Virus record (IMG/VR): IMGVR_UViG_3300005613_000329
Span: 1 to 28,311 of that record
DNA length: 28,311 nt
Strand: one strand, 5' to 3'
Source: a virus
This document shows, one piece after another, positions 1,935-28,311 of the stretch. The position numbers were made by a program, and so were the translations under genes. Within the stretch, counting starts at the first letter, position 1, and the number at the start of each line of letters is the position of its first letter. The notes under the pieces were generated by a model that ran no database searches, was not told where the DNA came from, and saw only the letters and a program-made list of their open reading frames with translations.

Positions 1935-2232
1935 GAATAATCAGTTCTTCAATGTAATAATCATCTTTATTCTCAAGAATGAATTTAAGGACATCTGGGA
2001 CACCATTATCAGTTATGCGGATATAGATGTCATCCTTCATCAAATCTTCCAAACTACCCCATCTCTGTCCGTTTCTAATACGGTTTATCTGTTGTCTTGA
2101 TACACCATATATATCAGACAGTTGTCCATCATCCAAATCGGTTGAGATAATCAACTTTTTAATTTGGACTACTTCCTCCAATGTTAGTTTCGCTTTTTTA
2201 ACAGAATTGTTTAATCTTTTTGAATCGGTCAT
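1915..2232 (-). CDS. Helix-turn-helix DNA-binding protein
   Basis: A 105-residue protein with a helix-turn-helix at about residues 35-57 (LSDIYGVSRQQINRIRNGQRW). The pattern is the one seen at the C-terminus of HNH endonucleases, including the protein at 26573-27007 here (LADEYGVTKTTIADTINLKRW), but no nuclease domain is present. The second half is acidic. It is the first gene of the minus-strand operon and faces the replication operon across a symmetric divergent promoter, the usual place for a repressor or switch protein. The regulatory role is inferred from position; the DNA-binding motif is visible. Confidence 0.7.
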   Translation of the reverse strand: MTDSKRLNNSVKKAKLTLEEVVQIKKLIISTDLDDGQLSDIYGVSRQQINRIRNGQRWGSLEDLMKDDIYIRITDNGVPDVLKFILENKDDYYIEELIIRGKKKS

Positions 2233-2273
2233 TTTTTGTAATTTTTATATTTAGTTATGTGAATACCACAATA

Positions 2274-2304
2274 TAAATATATAATAAATAAAAACTTTTA
2301 TCAA
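2274..2304 (-). promoter_or_regulatory. Leftward arm of the divergent promoter
   Basis: TTG (2304-2302), 20 bases, TATATTTA (2281-2274) on the minus strand, close to the Bacteroidota sigma-A form. It serves the HTH, zinc-ribbon and membrane-protein operon. Its -33 box is one half of the dyad ATCAAGTGTTGAT (2300-2312), the other half being the -33 box of the rightward promoter. Confidence 0.6.
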
Positions 2305-2307
2305 GTG

Positions 2308-2338
2308 TTGATTAAAAAAACATATTTATTTATATTTA
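2308..2338 (+). promoter_or_regulatory. Rightward arm of the divergent promoter
   Basis: TTG (2308-2310), 20 bases, TATATTTA (2331-2338), mirroring the leftward promoter base for base in spacing. The -7 region runs into TTATTGGTATAAAC (2336-2349), a 14-base element found unchanged at two promoters 23 kb away (25712-25725 and 25955-25968, minus strand). It drives the replication genes from 2367. Confidence 0.65.
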
Positions 2339-4648: not shown

Positions 4649-5064
4649 GAATAGAAGATTTGGTAAAGAGAGGTATATGGTCTGAAAACTGGAAAGAGGA
4701 GATTTATGAGTTGGGGAAACAAGGAAAACAACATACTCATTTGATGGAGCATTTTGACCTATCCAGAGATACATTCTACGCTTTAATCCAAAGAGATAAA
4801 GATTTCTCCGATGCCGTCAAGAAGGCACAGAACTATGCACAGAATTATTGGTTAAAATTTATGGAAGAATCATTCATAAATGGAAAGTCAAAAGATATTA
4901 ATTCTAACCTATGGAGTTTGGTTATGAGAAACAAATTCAAGGAGGATTGGAGTGACCGAAAGGAGATGGATGTGACGACACAAGGTGATAAGATAAAGAA
5001 TGATAATGACATCATAGTTAAAGTCATACCCCCCAAAGATATAGATGGAGATACAGACAACTGA
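4615..5064 (+). CDS. terS: Terminase small subunit, first packaging module
   Basis: A 149-residue protein: an AT-hook-like basic start (KKRGRPRIRI, residues 4-13), then a helix-turn-helix at about 35-60 (GKQHTHLMEHFDLSRDTFY), a helical oligomerisation region (AVKKAQNYAQNYWLKFMEES) and a C-terminal tail rich in acidic residues. This is the usual plan of small terminase subunits, which recognise the packaging site and load the large subunit. It overlaps the next gene, a clear large terminase, by 20 bases. It is unlike the second small subunit at 7603 in sequence and plan. No later internal ATG gives a sensible product, so 4615 is kept. Confidence 0.75.
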   Translation: MGEKKRGRPRIRIEDLVKRGIWSENWKEEIYELGKQGKQHTHLMEHFDLSRDTFYALIQRDKDFSDAVKKAQNYAQNYWLKFMEESFINGKSKDINSNLWSLVMRNKFKEDWSDRKEMDVTTQGDKIKNDNDIIVKVIPPKDIDGDTDN

Positions 5065-6208
5065 ACTATACCTAAAGATACAGAATGCCCTTCAAGAGAA
5101 TAAACGATATATTTTCTTGAGGGGTTCATCACGCTCTGGTAAAACGATTACAGCATTACAACATCTTATCATAACAGCCCTATCAAAACCCAATTCATTA
5201 ATCACCATTGCGAGAGAGACACAGGTCTCAATCAAGAATACCATTCTAATGGATTTTAAGGGGGTTTTAACGGACTTAAACTTGTGGGAGGACAATAGGT
5301 ATAACAAAGTGGAAATGGTGTATAGATTCCCCAATAAATCAATTATTAGATTTGTGGGAATGGATGATGCCACCGGTAAGTTAAGGGGAATGAAATCAGA
5401 TATTGTATTTGTGGATGAGGTTAATACAGTATCATTTGAACCATTTGTGCAAATTGATATAAGAACAGAACAATACATCATAGCAGCATATAACCCCGAA
5501 ATAACGGAAGATTGGTTCGGATTGGAATACGAGAATAAAGAGAATGGTATAATGATACATTCAACTTGGAAAGGTAATCCTTTTTTGGATAAGAGAATAA
5601 TCCAATCCATTCAAGAGTTAAAAGATTTAGACCCTGACCTATATGAGATTTATTCTGAAGGAAAACTGGTTCCCCCAAGAGAAAAGATATTTGTGAATTA
5701 TGACAAGTATTCAGAAGAACCAAGATACAAGGAGAGATACATAGGTTTAGACTGGGGATATAGTAATGACCCCTGTGCTGTGGTGGAGGTGTTAATAAAA
5801 GATAAAGATGTATATTGTAAGGAATTATTATATCAAGCAGGAACAACCAATGAAGACCTGATATTCATTCTAAAAGAACTTGGTATAGATAGGGAAACAA
5901 TCATCATTGCAGATTCGGCAGAACCCAAGTCCATACAAGATTTAAGAAGGGGAGGATTTAATATAAGGGGAGTTAAGAAAGGGGCTGGTAGTGTGTTATA
6001 TGGAATACAAAAGATGAAACAACATAAGATACACATACACGAAGATTCACTTAATTTATACAGAGAGTTCAGTGAATTGAAATTTAAGAAGGATAGGTCA
6101 GGTCGTGTCACAAACACTCCTGTTGGTGATGACCACCTTATAGATGGGGTTCGTTATGTCATTACAGAATTCGCAGATAAAAAACAAACAACATATCATT
6201 TTTTATGA
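5045..6208 (+). CDS. terL: Terminase large subunit, first packaging module
   Basis: A 387-residue protein with a complete ATPase and nuclease layout of the Terminase_3 (PBSX/COG1783-like) group. Walker A is GSSRSGKT (27-34) and Walker B IVFVDE (120-125). The RNase-H-like nuclease begins at GLDWGYSNDP (about 233), with a later acidic motif IADSAEPKS (about 290) and DHLIDGVRY (about 367). It powers DNA into the prohead and cuts the concatemer. No truncation or frameshift is visible, so it should be active. It differs clearly from the large subunit at 7916, and its serine codons (mostly TCA) contrast with the AGT-rich second module. It overlaps TerS by 20 bases. Confidence 0.9.
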   Translation: MEIQTTELYLKIQNALQENKRYIFLRGSSRSGKTITALQHLIITALSKPNSLITIARETQVSIKNTILMDFKGVLTDLNLWEDNRYNKVEMVYRFPNKSIIRFVGMDDATGKLRGMKSDIVFVDEVNTVSFEPFVQIDIRTEQYIIAAYNPEITEDWFGLEYENKENGIMIHSTWKGNPFLDKRIIQSIQELKDLDPDLYEIYSEGKLVPPREKIFVNYDKYSEEPRYKERYIGLDWGYSNDPCAVVEVLIKDKDVYCKELLYQAGTTNEDLIFILKELGIDRETIIIADSAEPKSIQDLRRGGFNIRGVKKGAGSVLYGIQKMKQHKIHIHEDSLNLYREFSELKFKKDRSGRVTNTPVGDDHLIDGVRYVITEFADKKQTTYHFL

Positions 6209-6309: not shown

Positions 6310-7237
6310 CATTTTAATACACGGAGACAGCAAAGAAAAACTAAAACAACTAACGGAAGGTTCAGTTGATTTTATGGCAACAGACCCCCCTTATGGATAT
6401 TCTTTTATGAATAAGGGGTGGGATAAAGTATTACCTGATGTGGAGATATGGAAGGAGAGTTTTAGAGTTCTTAAGGAGGGTTCTTTTATCTGTGTTATGG
6501 CAGCACCCCGAAGTGATGTATTATGGAGGTTGTGTAGGGATTTAGAGGGGGCAGGGTTTGACTTATCCTTTACGAATATAGAGTATGTATATCATTCTGG
6601 TTTTCCTAAAGCCAGTGATACATCAAAGATGATAGATAAAAGATTGGGGGTGGATAGAGAGGTGGTAGGTGAAAATCCTAACCATAGACCTAATAGTCCT
6701 AAAGATAATACCAAAGGTGATTACAACCCTAATAGTGAGGGTAATAAAGTAATTACAAAATCTAATAGTGAATTAGGTAAAAAATACGAAGGAAGTAAAT
6801 TAGGATTTCAACCGAAACCTTCAAGAGAAATTATTGTGGTGGGAATGAAACCATTTAAGGAAAAATCTTATATAGACAAGGTATTAAATTTTGAGGAACT
6901 ACCAGAGAATATACAACGAACATATCCGTTGATACAGACCCCTAAACCTAGTAAGAAAGAAAAGACAATAGGAACTGAAAATAACACCCATCCAACGGTT
7001 AAACCGATTAAGTTGATGTCTTACCTTATCACCTTATTTACAAGGGAAGGGGACTATGTTTTAGACCCTTTTATGGGTAGTGGAAGCACAGGACTGGCTT
7101 GTAAATTACTGAAGAGAAACTTTATTGGAATAGATTTTACGGAGGAGTATTTTAACATAGCAGAGGAACGACTACAGGTCAGTAGGGAGGAACTCATAAA
7201 AACATTAAAGATAAAGGTTCAAGGTGAATTATTCTAA
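6302..7237 (+). CDS. DNA methyltransferase, beta-type order, lacking its central recognition segment
   Basis: A 311-residue adenine-N6/cytosine-N4 methyltransferase. The catalytic DPPY is at 28-31 and the S-adenosylmethionine motif DPFMGSGST at 255-263, an order typical of the beta group. THPTVKPIKLM just before it is also typical. DPPY suggests adenine-N6. In relatives, a target-recognition stretch with a W-x-DDCRIP motif lies between SREI-x-V-x-MKP and the LPE-x-x-Q-x-TYP segment. Here the protein passes directly from KSYIDKVLN to FEELPENIQRTYP, and the missing stretch is encoded in the next frame at 7224. The first 180 bases nearly repeat those of the gene at 28122. It may protect phage DNA from host restriction. 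Confidence 0.85.
   Translation: MNNILIHGDSKEKLKQLTEGSVDFMATDPPYGYSFMNKGWDKVLPDVEIWKESFRVLKEGSFICVMAAPRSDVLWRLCRDLEGAGFDLSFTNIEYVYHSGFPKASDTSKMIDKRLGVDREVVGENPNHRPNSPKDNTKGDYNPNSEGNKVITKSNSELGKKYEGSKLGFQPKPSREIIVVGMKPFKEKSYIDKVLNFEELPENIQRTYPLIQTPKPSKKEKTIGTENNTHPTVKPIKLMSYLITLFTREGDYVLDPFMGSGSTGLACKLLKRNFIGIDFTEEYFNIAEERLQVSREELIKTLKIKVQGELF
6319..6500 (+). repeat. Left copy of a 182-bp direct repeat (methyltransferase start)
   Basis: This stretch matches 28130-28311 with 8 differences in 182 bases and no gaps, 21,811 bases apart. The match runs to the end of the window, so the full repeat may be longer. Confidence 0.9.
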
Positions 7238-7602: not shown

Positions 7603-7923
7603 ATGGCAACTACAAAAAAACCGGAGAGAGATAGTAGAGGTCGTCTTAAAAAAGGGTCTAATTTAAACCCTAAGGGACGACCTAAGGGACTGCCGAATAA
7701 GACGACAGGGGAGATACGTGAAGCGTACCAGAAGTTGGTTGACGACAACTTAGACAATATGAAGGAGTGGTTGGAGAGAGTAGCTGAGGAAGACCCGAAT
7801 AAAGCGTTAGACATGATGTTAAAATTGAGTGAGTACTTTATACCAAAGTTGGCTCGTCAGGAATTAACAGGTGCTGACGGGAAGGATTTATTTAAAGACA
7901 TCAAGTTTGAGTTCGGTGATTAA
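7603..7923 (+). CDS. terS: Terminase small subunit, second packaging module (DUF5681-like)
   Basis: A 106-residue protein with a basic, glycine/proline-rich N-terminus (SRGRLKKGSNLNPKGRPKG, then LPNKTTGEIREAY). This KGxNxxPxGRPKGxxNKxT pattern belongs to the DUF5681 type, which commonly sits just before a large terminase and acts as its small subunit. The rest is helical (DNMKEWLERVAEEDPNKALD). Its stop overlaps the start of the second large subunit by 8 bases. It shows no visible similarity to the small subunit at 4615 beyond a basic N-terminus. Codons are rich in AGT, GGT and TTA, as in the virion genes that follow. Confidence 0.7.
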   Translation: MATTKKPERDSRGRLKKGSNLNPKGRPKGLPNKTTGEIREAYQKLVDDNLDNMKEWLERVAEEDPNKALDMMLKLSEYFIPKLARQELTGADGKDLFKDIKFEFGD

Positions 7924-9139
7924 GGTAAAAGGATTTACCCCTCACAAAAAACAAAGAGATATTATAGATAGTATAATAGGGGGTGAAGAGAAGTACCATA
8001 TAATAAGTGTTGGTCGTCAGTTTGGTAAGAGTTTAATGGGTATGAACCTATTACTCTATTGGACTATAAATGATAAACCCTGTAAGGTATTATGGGTCTC
8101 ACCAGTATACTCACAGACCAATAAGGTACAGAAGGAATTAGAACGAGCAATAAGACCATCAGGGTTCATTAAAACATGTAACTTTAGTGAGAGTTATATT
8201 GAGTTAAAAAACGGAAGTGAGATATACTTTAGAAGTGCTGAGAGATATGATAACATAAGGGGTTATACTTTTGACTATGCGATATTAGATGAGGCAGCCT
8301 TTATGAAGGGTGAAACATGGAATGAAGCTGTAAGACCAACACTAGCAGTAAGGGGAAAAAAGGTATTGTTTTTATCTACACCAAAAGGGAAGAATTGGTT
8401 TTACGATTTGTATAACTTAGGACTTAGTGGAGATTACAAAAACTACAAGAGTTATAAGGGAAGTAGTTACGATACCCCTTATATTGTTGCTGATGAGATA
8501 GAGGACGCAAAGAGGACTTTACCTGATGGTGTTTTTCGTCAGGAGTATTTGGCAGAGTTCTTAGATGGTGGGGGGGAGGTATTTAGTAATTTGGACTTAT
8601 GTAGTTACGATGTTTATCCCTCACCAAAGGGTCAGGTATACGCAGGGATAGATTTGGGTAGACAGGAAGATTATAGTGTTGTTGTTATGATGGATAGTGA
8701 AGGTAGAGTTATTGACGTACACAGAGACAATAAAAGGGATTGGAGTTTTATTATAAGGGACATAGAACTACTATTAAAAAAGTATAATGCTATAGGACTT
8801 ATGGAGGTCAATAGTATAGGTGATGTTATATACGAACAGGTAAAGATGAGGTATAAGGATATCCACCCCTTTACAACAACGAATAAAACGAAACAGGAGG
8901 TCATAGAGGGGTTAATATTGGACTTTAACGAGATGAGTATAGGTATACCATCAAAAAAACTTTTTAACCCCTTATATCAAGAGTTAGAGACTTTTACATA
9001 TGATTATAACCCGAAGACAAGAAGTATTAAATACGGACACCCTACAGGGTTACATGATGATTGTGTTATAGCTTTATCGTTGGCTAACTATTGTAAAAAG
9101 ACGAAACATAAAAAAGGTAAATATACGTATATGGTATGA
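7916..9139 (+). CDS. terL: Terminase large subunit, second packaging module
   Basis: I place the start at the GTG at 7916, where the conserved part begins (KGFTPHKKQRDII); an in-frame start at 7871 is possible but would overlap TerS by 53 bases. The product is about 407 residues. The Walker-A-like motif is VGRQFGKS (about 32-39), the Walker B region DYAILDEAAFM, with a coupling motif FLSTPKGKN. The nuclease has GIDLGRQEDYSVV, LMEVNSIGD and HDDCVIALSLA. This is a Terminase_6-type motor. All key motifs are present, so it appears functional. Its position directly before the tail and head genes makes it the likely cognate motor of this virion. Confidence 0.88.
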   Translation: MIKVKGFTPHKKQRDIIDSIIGGEEKYHIISVGRQFGKSLMGMNLLLYWTINDKPCKVLWVSPVYSQTNKVQKELERAIRPSGFIKTCNFSESYIELKNGSEIYFRSAERYDNIRGYTFDYAILDEAAFMKGETWNEAVRPTLAVRGKKVLFLSTPKGKNWFYDLYNLGLSGDYKNYKSYKGSSYDTPYIVADEIEDAKRTLPDGVFRQEYLAEFLDGGGEVFSNLDLCSYDVYPSPKGQVYAGIDLGRQEDYSVVVMMDSEGRVIDVHRDNKRDWSFIIRDIELLLKKYNAIGLMEVNSIGDVIYEQVKMRYKDIHPFTTTNKTKQEVIEGLILDFNEMSIGIPSKKLFNPLYQELETFTYDYNPKTRSIKYGHPTGLHDDCVIALSLANYCKKTKHKKGKYTYMV

Positions 9140-25720: not shown

Positions 25721-25752
25721 AATAAATATCACATAATTTAGTAAAAGTCAAA
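25721..25752 (-). promoter_or_regulatory. Promoter for the 25450-25692 gene
   Basis: TTTG (25752-25749), 20 bases, TATTTATT (25728-25721) on the minus strand. The region ACTTTTACTAAAT-N2-ATGTGATA is nearly the same as at the promoter at 26511-26542. The 14-base element TTATTGGTATAAAC (25725-25712) spans the -7 box and start region. Confidence 0.6.
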
Positions 25753-25944
25753 ATATTTAATACTTTTTTTATCTAACTTATAGTTAATAACTTCATCTAT
25801 AACGTTTTGTTGTTGCCTACATAAATCATTATAGATATTTTTTTGTATCCACAATAAATAATTTAATGGTAATGATTTAACATTTTTACCTTTATATTTA
25901 CCAAATAATACAATATTCTGTTTTCTGGTGATAAACTTTTTCAT
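25738..25944 (-). CDS. DUF3820-like small protein (68 aa)
   Basis: A 68-residue protein with FGKYKGKNVKSLPLNYLLWI at about residues 14-33. The pattern FGKYKGK-x-x-x-x-LP-x-x-YL-x-W is characteristic of DUF3820, a short domain also found at the end of some exonuclease-X-type proteins and as free-standing phage proteins. Its own role is unknown; DNA or nucleotide binding is a possibility. It has its own promoter at 25964-25995 and its end overlaps the promoter of the next minus-strand gene. Confidence 0.65.
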   Translation of the reverse strand: MKKFITRKQNIVLFGKYKGKNVKSLPLNYLLWIQKNIYNDLCRQQQNVIDEVINYKLDKKSIKYFDFY

Positions 25945-25963
25945 AATTTATATTGTTTATACC

Positions 25964-25995
25964 AATAAGTATTAGATAAAAAATAAAAAGTCAAA
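25964..25995 (-). promoter_or_regulatory. Promoter for the 25738-25944 gene
   Basis: TTTG (25995-25992), exactly 20 bases, TACTTATT (25971-25964) on the minus strand, followed by the shared element TTATTGGTATAAAC (25968-25955). It is back-to-back with the RNA promoter at 26011-26042. Confidence 0.6.
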
Positions 25996-26010
25996 TTATT
26001 TTTTTAGTAT

Positions 26011-26042
26011 TTAGACTTTTACAAAAGTTGGATATACTTATA
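26011..26042 (+). promoter_or_regulatory. Promoter for the candidate noncoding RNA
   Basis: TTAG (26011-26014, one base off TTTG), 20 bases, TACTTATA (26035-26042). Spacing and the ACTTTTAC segment after the -33 box match the other promoters of this region. Transcription should start near 26048. Confidence 0.55.
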
Positions 26043-26047
26043 ACATA

Positions 26048-26434
26048 TAACAGGAGAATTAACTTACCTTATCTCCTACTGGTTGTGACGAACCGATAAC
26101 ATAATAAAAGGTAATTACTCGTCAAACATCATTTTACATAATAATGTCGTCCTACTGACAAAATGTAATACCGACTTAATCTACTCCACAAGTAAATAGG
26201 TATATGATGGTTTATTCGGGGTGTTATTTGTGAATACAGAAAGACAATAACACAATATCAGTTTAAGTGGTGTAATGTTAAACTGAGGGGGGCTGAATAA
26301 ATAGAACGGGTAGTTAAAACTTAAGAACCTGAGGAATACAAGGGGATTAAGTATAAGAGTAGGTATGCTCTATCAGCAAATAATAAAAATATTAAATAAA
26401 AAAAAAAGGATAACCTCGTTAGATTACCCTTTTT
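26048..26434 (+). ncRNA. Candidate structured noncoding RNA (about 390 nt)
   Basis: This stretch has no reasonable open frame but has a promoter before it, a terminator at its end and many complementary segments. Local stems: AGGAGA/TCTCCT (26052-26057, 26072-26077); GGTT/AACC (26081-26084, 26091-26094); a hairpin ACATCATT/AATAATGT with one mismatch around 26130; GTGTTATT/AATAACAC (26221-26228, 26246-26253); TCAGTTTAA/TTAAACTGA (26258-26266, 26278-26286). A long-range helix ACTTAATC/GATTAAGT (26174-26181, 26345-26352) encloses the last two. CCTACT occurs twice (26075, 26151) and can pair with AGTAGG (26358-26363). I do not recognise it as tmRNA, RNase P, 6S RNA or a group I intron. Function unknown. 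Confidence 0.6.
26403..26434 (+). terminator. Terminator of the candidate noncoding RNA
   Basis: AAAAAGG (26403-26409) pairs with CCTTTTT (26428-26434), followed inward by TAA/TTA after one mismatch and a small CT/AG-closed loop. The paired T-run ends the transcript. Strong A-runs before it would also allow termination from the minus side. Confidence 0.65.
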
Positions 26435-26510
26435 ATAAACATTATTAAAATCATTGTATGAATACACAATACGTAAAGATATAAAAAAAAAAGAAAAAAA
26501 ACAAGAAACA

Positions 26511-26542
26511 AGTAACTTTTACTAAATATCGTGATACTTATA
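26511..26542 (+). promoter_or_regulatory. Promoter for the HNH/sigma-like operon
   Basis: A clear -7 box TACTTATA (26535-26542) stands 18 bases after TAAC; the -33 box is weak. The stretch ACTTTTACTAAAT (26515-26527) followed by GTGATA is the same as at the minus-strand promoter at 25721-25752. It serves the genes from 26573. Confidence 0.5.
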
Positions 26543-26572
26543 TATAGATAAACACATAAAATTAAAATTAAA

Positions 26573-27007
26573 ATGGAATACTACGCCGACAAAGAAGGAA
26601 ATGTTTACAACATGTTAGACAAAAAAATTAAACTAACAGAACACCATAAGGGGTATTTGTTGTTTTGTGATTATAACGCAAATAAATACCAACATGTAAA
26701 AAAGAAAAGAAAAACATGGAGGGTACATAGATTTATATGGGAATACTTCAAGGGAGAAATACCAACTAATTTGGAGATAGACCATATCAACGGAGATAAA
26801 AAAGACAATAGATTAGAAAATCTAAGATTGGTTACACCAGCAGAAAACACTAGACATAGAGAGTATTGTAAATTAGATATGGAGACAGCGAAACAAATTA
26901 GATTAAGATACCAACAGGAGGATATAAGTTATAAACAATTGGCCGATGAATATGGTGTAACAAAAACAACCATAGCGGATACAATAAATTTAAAAAGATG
27001 GATATGA
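26573..27007 (+). CDS. HNH homing-type endonuclease
   Basis: A 144-residue protein. HNH residues lie in VHRFIWEYFKGEIPTNLEID, continuing HINGDKKDNRLENLRLVTPA (about 58-96), the classic HNH_3 type of phage free-standing homing endonucleases: H in VHRF, DHINGD and the asparagine in DNRLENL. The C-terminal end carries a helix-turn-helix (YKQLADEYGVTKTTIADTI) for DNA recognition. It is full length with no interruption. Such enzymes nick or cut phage DNA and spread by recombination; no intron is visible around it. It starts its own operon after the candidate RNA. Confidence 0.85.
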   Translation: MEYYADKEGNVYNMLDKKIKLTEHHKGYLLFCDYNANKYQHVKKKRKTWRVHRFIWEYFKGEIPTNLEIDHINGDKKDNRLENLRLVTPAENTRHREYCKLDMETAKQIRLRYQQEDISYKQLADEYGVTKTTIADTINLKRWI

Positions 27008-27084
27008 TTGAAATATTCATTTCTATAGTCCTTAGTGGTATTATTGGAGGGTATATGATATACAAGTATGGAAATAGTAAATAA
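27004..27084 (+). CDS. 26-aa membrane peptide
   Basis: A 26-residue frame whose ATG overlaps the HNH stop (ATGA at 27004-27007) and whose end overlaps the next gene's start by 17 bases. Nearly all of it is one hydrophobic helix (IEIFISIVLSGIIGGYMIY) with a short basic tail (KYGNSK). The two tight overlaps favour real translation over chance. It could be a membrane effector or only a coupling peptide that carries ribosomes to the sigma-like gene. Confidence 0.45.
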   Translation: MIEIFISIVLSGIIGGYMIYKYGNSK

Positions 27085-27679
27085 GTGGATTACAGACAAC
27101 TATAAAGACCTTAGAAAGACATTATTGAATATAACTCATAATGACTATGAATATGTTGATGATTTATTACATGAATGTATTGTAATTTTTATCCAACACA
27201 AAAAGGCAATTGAACTGGTTGAGAAAAAACAAGCTAAGTTCTTTTTTATAAGGATTGTATTAAATCAGTATAGGAGTACCACCTCATCGTTTTATAAACG
27301 ATTTAGAAAAAGAAACCTCACGTTAAATGAGGATATTAAGATAGATATTGAAAATGATGAGGAATATGATTACGATTTAGATAAACTTATCAACTTAAAT
27401 ATTAACATAATTGAAGAACTATTAAAAAGTGATAACGCAATTGAACGACATTATGGGATTATTGTTATGTTGTACTTTAGCAACGGACACAACTTCGCTG
27501 AGGTTGCTAGGTGTTTGGATATACCACGAACTACAATACGTCGTCAGTTTGACGATGCCACAAAGATAATATTAAAAAAGATGAAGGAGAAAAGAACCGA
27601 TATTGAATATAACGATTTGCCCTTAAAAATATTAACAACGGAACTATTAAAGGGGTATGGAAGAAAAAGAAGATTTTGA
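27068..27679 (+). CDS. Sigma-factor-like protein (ECF type)
   Basis: A 203-residue protein with the two domains of a small sigma factor. The N-terminal half (about 20-80: EYVDDLLHECIVIFIQHKKA, then KFFFIRIVLNQYRSTTSSFY) resembles region 2, which binds the -10 type box and core polymerase. After an acidic linker (EDIKIDIENDEEYDYD), the C-terminal half has a region-4-like helix-turn-helix (NFAEVARCLDIPRTTIRRQF). Phages of Bacteroidota often carry such proteins to redirect transcription. It may act on the promoters around 25.7-26.5 kb, which share a conserved extension. DNA-binding specificity is inferred. Confidence 0.65.
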   Translation: MEIVNKWITDNYKDLRKTLLNITHNDYEYVDDLLHECIVIFIQHKKAIELVEKKQAKFFFIRIVLNQYRSTTSSFYKRFRKRNLTLNEDIKIDIENDEEYDYDLDKLINLNINIIEELLKSDNAIERHYGIIVMLYFSNGHNFAEVARCLDIPRTTIRRQFDDATKIILKKMKEKRTDIEYNDLPLKILTTELLKGYGRKRRF

Positions 27680-28122: not shown

Positions 28123-28311
28123 TGATATTACACGGAGATAGTAAAGAAAAACTAAAACAACTAACGGAAGGTTCAGTTGATTTTATGGCAACAGACCCCC
28201 CTTATGGATACTCTTTTATGGGTAAGTCGTGGGATAAAGTATTACCTGATGTTGAGATATGGAAGGAGAGTTTTAGAGTTCTTAAGGAGGGTTCTTTTAT
28301 CTGTGTTATGG
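28122..28311 (+). CDS. DNA methyltransferase, second copy, cut by the window edge
   Basis: The first 63 codons of a methyltransferase with the catalytic DPPY (TDPPYGYSFMGKSWDKV). It is nearly the same as the start of the gene at 6302: 8 base changes in 182 aligned positions, with a shortened first few codons. The rest, including any central recognition segment and S-adenosylmethionine motif, is outside the window. The TAATG overlap with the previous gene indicates a coupled cistron. Confidence 0.85.
   Translation, partial: MILHGDSKEKLKQLTEGSVDFMATDPPYGYSFMGKSWDKVLPDVEIWKESFRVLKEGSFICVM
28130..28311 (+). repeat. Right copy of the 182-bp direct repeat (methyltransferase start)
   Basis: It matches 6319-6500 without gaps, 8 differences in 182 bases. 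The last 58 bases, 28254-28311, are identical to the left copy. The window ends inside this repeat, which is a place where assemblies typically stop. Confidence 0.9.

Follow-up and report, generated by a model that had tools for sequence, protein, structure and literature searches.

A structured non-coding RNA at an exchangeable locus of an uncultured phage clade, probably representing a new family of standalone phage RNAs

The window, meaning the whole 28,311-nucleotide stretch of viral DNA analysed here (IMG/VR record IMGVR_UViG_3300005613_000329), contains a gap of 628 nt between genes (25945-26572), flanked by a divergent minus-strand gene and by an HNH_3 endonuclease gene (Table 1), the latter being a neighbour that lies outside the RNA unit. 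The stretch had been singled out as gene-free, and it is: there are 0 ORFs of at least 50 aa over 26011-26434, no ORF is conserved among the homologues, and inspection of the three plus-strand frames across them revealed no shared open frame, so that comparison shows the stretch to be non-coding. All strings named in the original prediction were located and their coordinates checked. Taken by itself, the window sequence is unconvincing, because its single-sequence folding energy is ordinary (z of -1.19, with 15 of 100 shuffles equally good) and generic sigma-70-like matches are at background level (11 found vs 10.3 expected); it is the homologues that settle the case.

Transcription signals of a more specific kind frame the region. 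A phage-specific promoter motif, CTTTT-N~14-TAYTTAT, recurs in the window, where CTTTTNNNNAANNNNNNGATAYTTAT has 12 copies at no more than 3 mismatches vs 3.1 expected, and the best three copies (0, 0 and 1 mismatch) belong to the minus-strand gene (25747), the RNA (26016) and the HNH gene (26516). Similar sites precede the RNA in the related contigs L081 and L097, and other homologues have them before neighbouring genes. At the other end, the terminator hairpin has undergone compensatory changes (GGGUA/UACCC in L002, GGGUU/AACCC in L081, GGGAGC/GCUCCC in L083) and is kept in four of the five distinct sequences. The claim that the RNA has a promoter and a terminator of its own is thus borne out at the level of prediction, and together with the lack of coding capacity these are the marks of a standalone bacterial or phage non-coding RNA, except that no obvious terminator follows the RNA in L097. 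A conserved sigma-like protein (phrog_1740) is encoded near the RNA at 27068-27679 of the window and could be the reader of the CTTTT-N14-TAYTTAT promoters.

Related IMG/VR contigs were fetched through neighbour genes and RNA patterns, and RNA matches were sought with nhmmer and a covariance model (CM). Homologues of 26049-26380 occur in eight other contigs (L002, L071, L074, L081, L083, L085, L097 and L107), and the nine contigs including the window reduce to five distinct sequences: the window (W), L002, L081, L083 and L097. The L002 group comprises L071 and L074/L078/L079, about 99.5% identical, and the other near-copies are L085/L099, grouped with L083, and L107, grouped with L097. All five distinct sequences come from one phage clade, which is regarded as uncultured because the terminases of isolated phages are only distantly similar (no match reaches 60% identity, and those listed are at 25-30%). 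No further credible RNA match was found in a set of 75 loci gathered almost entirely by a wider terminase search, nor in a CM search, run without a positive control, of 395 genomes belonging to the same class as L155 (titled a Flavobacteriales MAG); covariance model R1 spans only the 171 positions of the core. Several candidates were rejected: the pattern matches in L076/L077 and a blast match in L033 are coding regions and were put down to chance, L089:9838-10009 (CM E=0.0017, filters off) lies inside a long ORF, and 44 pattern matches in genome contigs yielded no credible CM match.

The homologue collection and covariation test proposed with the original prediction were carried out on a sequence-only MAFFT alignment (A6) of the five sequences, with a fold lacking PK4. 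In this alignment 87.2% of cells are paired, 38 of 80 pairs are changed on both sides and the covariation score is 0.435; the shuffled control, which leaves relatedness uncorrected, gives 72.6%, 17.3 double-changed pairs and 0.188, and none of 500 shuffles attains the pairing or the covariation of the real alignment. Since the fold was drawn by hand from the same five sequences that tested it, the slid-partner control (38-48% paired, 5-11 double-changed pairs, covariation about 0.07-0.10) answers the circularity in part. On hand-curated strands, H3, H4, H5, H8, H9, PK1 and PK2 each show many double changes, and comparison in this way shows a common fold.

Table 1. Features of the RNA locus, in window coordinates.
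Feature	Positions	Strand	Evidence or remark
Divergent 68-aa gene, PF12843-like	25738..25944	-	homologue adjoins RNA in L083 and L097
Phage-type promoter CTTTTACAAAAGTTGGATATACTTAT	26016..26041	+	predicted RNA start ~26049
Structured RNA body	26049..26380	+	five distinct homologues, nhmmer and CM
H1, hairpin GGAG/CUCC, conserved loop UUAAYUUACCU	26053..26076	+	100% of cells paired
PK4 (candidate), H1 loop UUACCU 26064-26069 with AGGUAA 26109-26114	26064..26114	+	invariant, 5/5
H2, short hairpin	26081..26094	+	compensatory in L097 (AGU/ACU); registers vary, so poorly aligned in the MAFFT test
H3, long-range closing helix UACUCGU/ACGGGUA	26116-26122/26306-26312	+	4/7 pairs double-changed
H4, CAUCAU/AUGAUG	26127-26132/26204-26209	+	5/6 pairs double-changed, 100% paired
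H5, UUACAU/AUGUAA	26134-26139/26163-26168	+	partly aligned by MAFFT (55% of cells)
H5b, UGUC/GACA, 8-nt loop	26145-26148/26157-26160	+	hand-curated strands
PK1, H5b loop CCUACU 26151-26156 with AGUAGG 26358-26363	26151..26363	+	5/6 pairs double-changed
H6a, UACC/GGUA, and H6b, UAC/GUA, loop UCCACAA	26169..26202	+	homologue comparison
PK2, ACUUAAUC 26174-26181 with GAUUAAGU 26345-26352	26174..26352	+	4-5/8 pairs double-changed
PK3 (candidate kissing pair), CCAC 26186-26189 with GUGG 26267-26270	26186..26270	+	
H7, UUUAUUC/GAAUAAA	26211-26217/26295-26301	+	hand-curated strands and MAFFT alignment
H8, GUGUUAUU/AAUAACAC, near-invariant loop GUGAAUAnAGAAA	26221..26253	+	covariation
H9, UCAGUUUAA/UUAAACUGA	26258..26286	+	6/9 pairs double-changed
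H10, local hairpin ACUUAA/UUAAGU	26319..26352	+	23/25 cells paired, 4/5 pairs double-changed
Terminator hairpin, possibly bidirectional	26403..26434	+	scored on - strand
HNH_3 endonuclease gene	26573..27007	+	own promoter motif at 26516

Both local stems picked out beforehand belong to this fold and covary, GTGTTATT/AATAACAC (26221-26228/26246-26253) being H8, in which all seven scored pairs are double-changed on hand-curated strands and 5/8 on the MAFFT alignment, and TCAGTTTAA/TTAAACTGA (26258-26266/26278-26286) being H9. H6b has compensatory variants (UAC/GUA, UAG/CUA, CAU/AUG) and is missing from L083. The long-range helix ACTTAATC/GATTAAGT proves to be a true pseudoknot, PK2, which covaries as ACUUAAUC/GAUUAAGU, AAUUAAUC/GAUUAAUU, AAUGAAC/GUUCAUU and GAAUGAAC/GUUCAUUC. 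Equally well documented is PK1, with the variants CCUACU/AGUAGG in the window, ACCCGU/ACGGGU in L002, CCGACU/AGUCGG in L081 and ACCACC/GGUGGU in L083; in each RNA the partner is the sole perfect complement of the loop and lies at the corresponding place, at chance levels of 0.08, 0.017, 0.017 and 0.009 per sequence in the four sequences scored. PK1 and PK2 are mutually nested and would jointly pin the 3' tail to the H4 domain. The candidate pair PK3 is suggestive only: it shows no variation where present, but its two loops are jointly absent from L083. PK4, being invariant, offers no covariation.

The fate of the alternative folds that had been proposed is mixed. The motif TCCTACTG does occur twice (26074 and 26150), and AGTAGG is present at 26358-26363, but the option of pairing with either copy is confined to the window: the first copy is not conserved, and across the family only the second is the partner of AGTAGG. 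The repeated ACCGA is likewise not conserved across homologues. While the choice between the two CCTACT copies thus lapses, a different conflict is conserved, in that GAUUAAGU can pair either with 26174-26181 (PK2) or with ACUUAA at 26319-26324 (H10), the two being mutually exclusive, and the ACUUAA strand of H10 changes in step with the PK2 strands.

Inverted repeats, together with an exchange boundary that falls at the end of the RNA, could also be those of a DNA element, such as an origin or a packaging or recombination site with cruciforms. This reading is scarcely credible, given that the scored helices contain 13 G-U cells and 0 A-C cells, a bias which favours RNA, and given the covarying pseudoknots, near-invariant loops, promoter motif and terminator. 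The same bias identifies the strand, which comparison thereby shows to be the plus strand.

Rfam 15 (4227 families) was searched at the gathering threshold and, on the region, at a relaxed E<=5, and no family matched, including GOLLD, ROOL, 6S, tmRNA, RNase P, group I intron and riboswitch models; the homologues L081, L083 and L097 likewise gave no ROOL match. The view of the region as an unrecognised structured RNA is therefore upheld by covariation in five distinct homologues, the G-U strand bias and the lack of a Rfam 15 match. A DUF805b match in L233 (E=0.003, below gathering, 28 nt) and weak matches to RatA and other families were judged to be chance. L158:4042-4174, which is free of genes and belongs to a related phage, gave a sub-threshold 5S-like match (hveRNA, E=0.34), probably by chance as well.

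GOLLD and ROOL are cage-forming phage RNAs of unknown function, and GOLLD, whose expression rises at lysis, assembles as a 14-mer cage (PMC12286853). The RNA resembles both in kind and belongs to neither: it shares with GOLLD the character of a large, elaborately folded non-coding RNA of phages or prophages whose function is unknown, and with ROOL a phage-borne nature, multiple pseudoknots (here PK1 and PK2, which covary) and the lack of a known protein partner, whereas it matches the covariance model of neither and, at ~340 nt vs about 600-800 (GOLLD often >800), is about half their size. Moreover, GOLLD often lies near tRNA genes, whereas an ARAGORN scan of the window gave no tRNA. The cage of ROOL is a homo-oligomeric nanocage. 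An ornate RNA working as a homo-oligomeric cage or ring, in which PK1 and PK3 would be intermolecular, would fit the several pseudoknot and kissing pairs of a phage-borne molecule and the precedent of the two cage-forming RNAs; the small size, the missing model matches and the absence of a nearby tRNA make this unlikely.

The genomic setting is informative with regard to function. Four of the five distinct sequences (W, L002, L081 and L083) occupy the same locus, directly before an HNH / sigma-like / terminase block, in the order small minus-strand gene, RNA, HNH_3 endonuclease, sigma-like gene, small gene, (methylase), DUF5681-like gene and terminase; the window ends inside the methylase, so that a terminase on the downstream side of the RNA would lie beyond its end, and L071 stops before the HNH gene. 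The PF12843-like gene is absent beside the RNA in L002 and L081, and its link to the RNA is incomplete. In L097, comparison shows the RNA and the divergent PF12843-like gene to be inverted as a block relative to the flanking genes (L083:4946-5505 matches L097:14037-13492). Comparison likewise shows replacement in a near-identical phage: L083 and L166 share 94.9% identity across 1.48 kb (L083:5550 to 7033, from just before the terminator through the HNH gene and beyond), and to the left of this segment L083 has the gene and the RNA (4932-5549), whereas L166 has an unrelated sequence (type B in what follows) that reads as a candidate RNA from the opposite strand (36-262). Furthermore, in other relatives sharing this gene order (L004 and L084, for example) the RNA was not found.

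These arrangements bear on two further readings. As the RNA lies upstream of the HNH gene on the same strand, and as the mutually exclusive PK2 and H10 are conserved, it might be a cis-acting leader or attenuator of that gene with the exclusion as its switch; this is very unlikely, because the two are set apart by a terminator and by a distinct promoter motif (26516), because the RNA of L097 runs toward a convergent ORF, and because L166 has the same terminator-HNH segment without the RNA. Terminase genes in the neighbourhood and loop-loop pairing are also reminiscent of phi29 pRNA, a phage RNA that is a motor component in all members of its group. That the present RNA is an essential packaging-motor RNA of this kind is nevertheless highly improbable: it is replaced or not found in L166, L004 and L084, whose terminases are related and whose genes lie in the same order, it has no Rfam pRNA match, and the terminase is of a different type, Terminase_6N. 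Exchange between near-identical phages indicates that the RNA is replaceable; this favours an accessory function and counts against an essential one in structure or packaging.

Altogether, the evidence makes it probable that these sequences make up a new family of phage RNAs that stand alone, act in trans and are housed in an exchangeable cassette. In the proposed mechanism, the phage-type promoter would give rise to a non-coding RNA of ~340 nt which, with the terminator, amounts to about 340-390 bases overall; H3 would close a multibranched core formed by H4-H9, the adjacent PK1 and PK2 would fold the 3' tail back onto this core, and the loop of the 5' hairpin probably forms one more pseudoknot, PK4. 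The RNA would be transcribed in infection and act in trans on a target of the host or of a rival phage, presumably through its shape and the conserved loops GUGAAUAnAGAAA and UUAAYUUACCU, and probably serves the phage as an optional aid to infection, not as one of its core components. Among possible roles, a counter-defence or decoy RNA capturing a host protein is the tentative first choice, a step that we infer from the exchange pattern alone. Antisense regulation appears quite improbable; a search of the window for antisense targets of the conserved loops gave nothing convincing, the best matches outside the RNA having 2-5 mismatches.

We know of few phage RNAs of such complexity, and the present one, at roughly half the size of the cage-forming classes, has a fold backed by covariation that includes two pseudoknots. 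Near-identical phages with the RNA or another sequence at the same site constitute a natural experiment, through which its role is testable by cassette swap. The findings also suggest that RNA genes may sit in phage accessory loci, where they are invisible to protein-based annotation.

Type B is a candidate RNA of ~190 nt (L004:3530-3790, L075:5042-5301 and L166:20-270, all on the minus strand). It shares with the window RNA the locus in related phages, the promoter motif (in L004), a terminator-like 3' end (GGTGTAG/CTACACC followed by a T-run) and the lack of a Rfam match, and differs in its unrelated sequence, its length and its opposite strand; its folding energies are unremarkable. A CTACACC element recurs near its 5' end, and an attenuator-like switch is possible. 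On a broader and rather doubtful reading, the locus would be a hot spot at which phages exchange structured-RNA genes in either orientation, as they do anti-defence protein genes, with at least two unrelated RNA classes acting on host immunity or rival phages. L084, which has neither RNA type, carries at this locus a third stretch without genes (2130-2310, minus strand; the same promoter motif at 2309, minus strand), which resembles type B around the promoter only.

As for the window itself, its methylase segments at 6315-6500 and 28126-28311 are 95% identical and 21.8 kb apart, and it carries two large terminases of different type (5045-6208, Terminase_3; 7871-9139, Terminase_6N); it may be a chimera or recombinant of a circle of ~21.8 kb (compare L004, 21,739 bases) and 6.3 kb of another phage.
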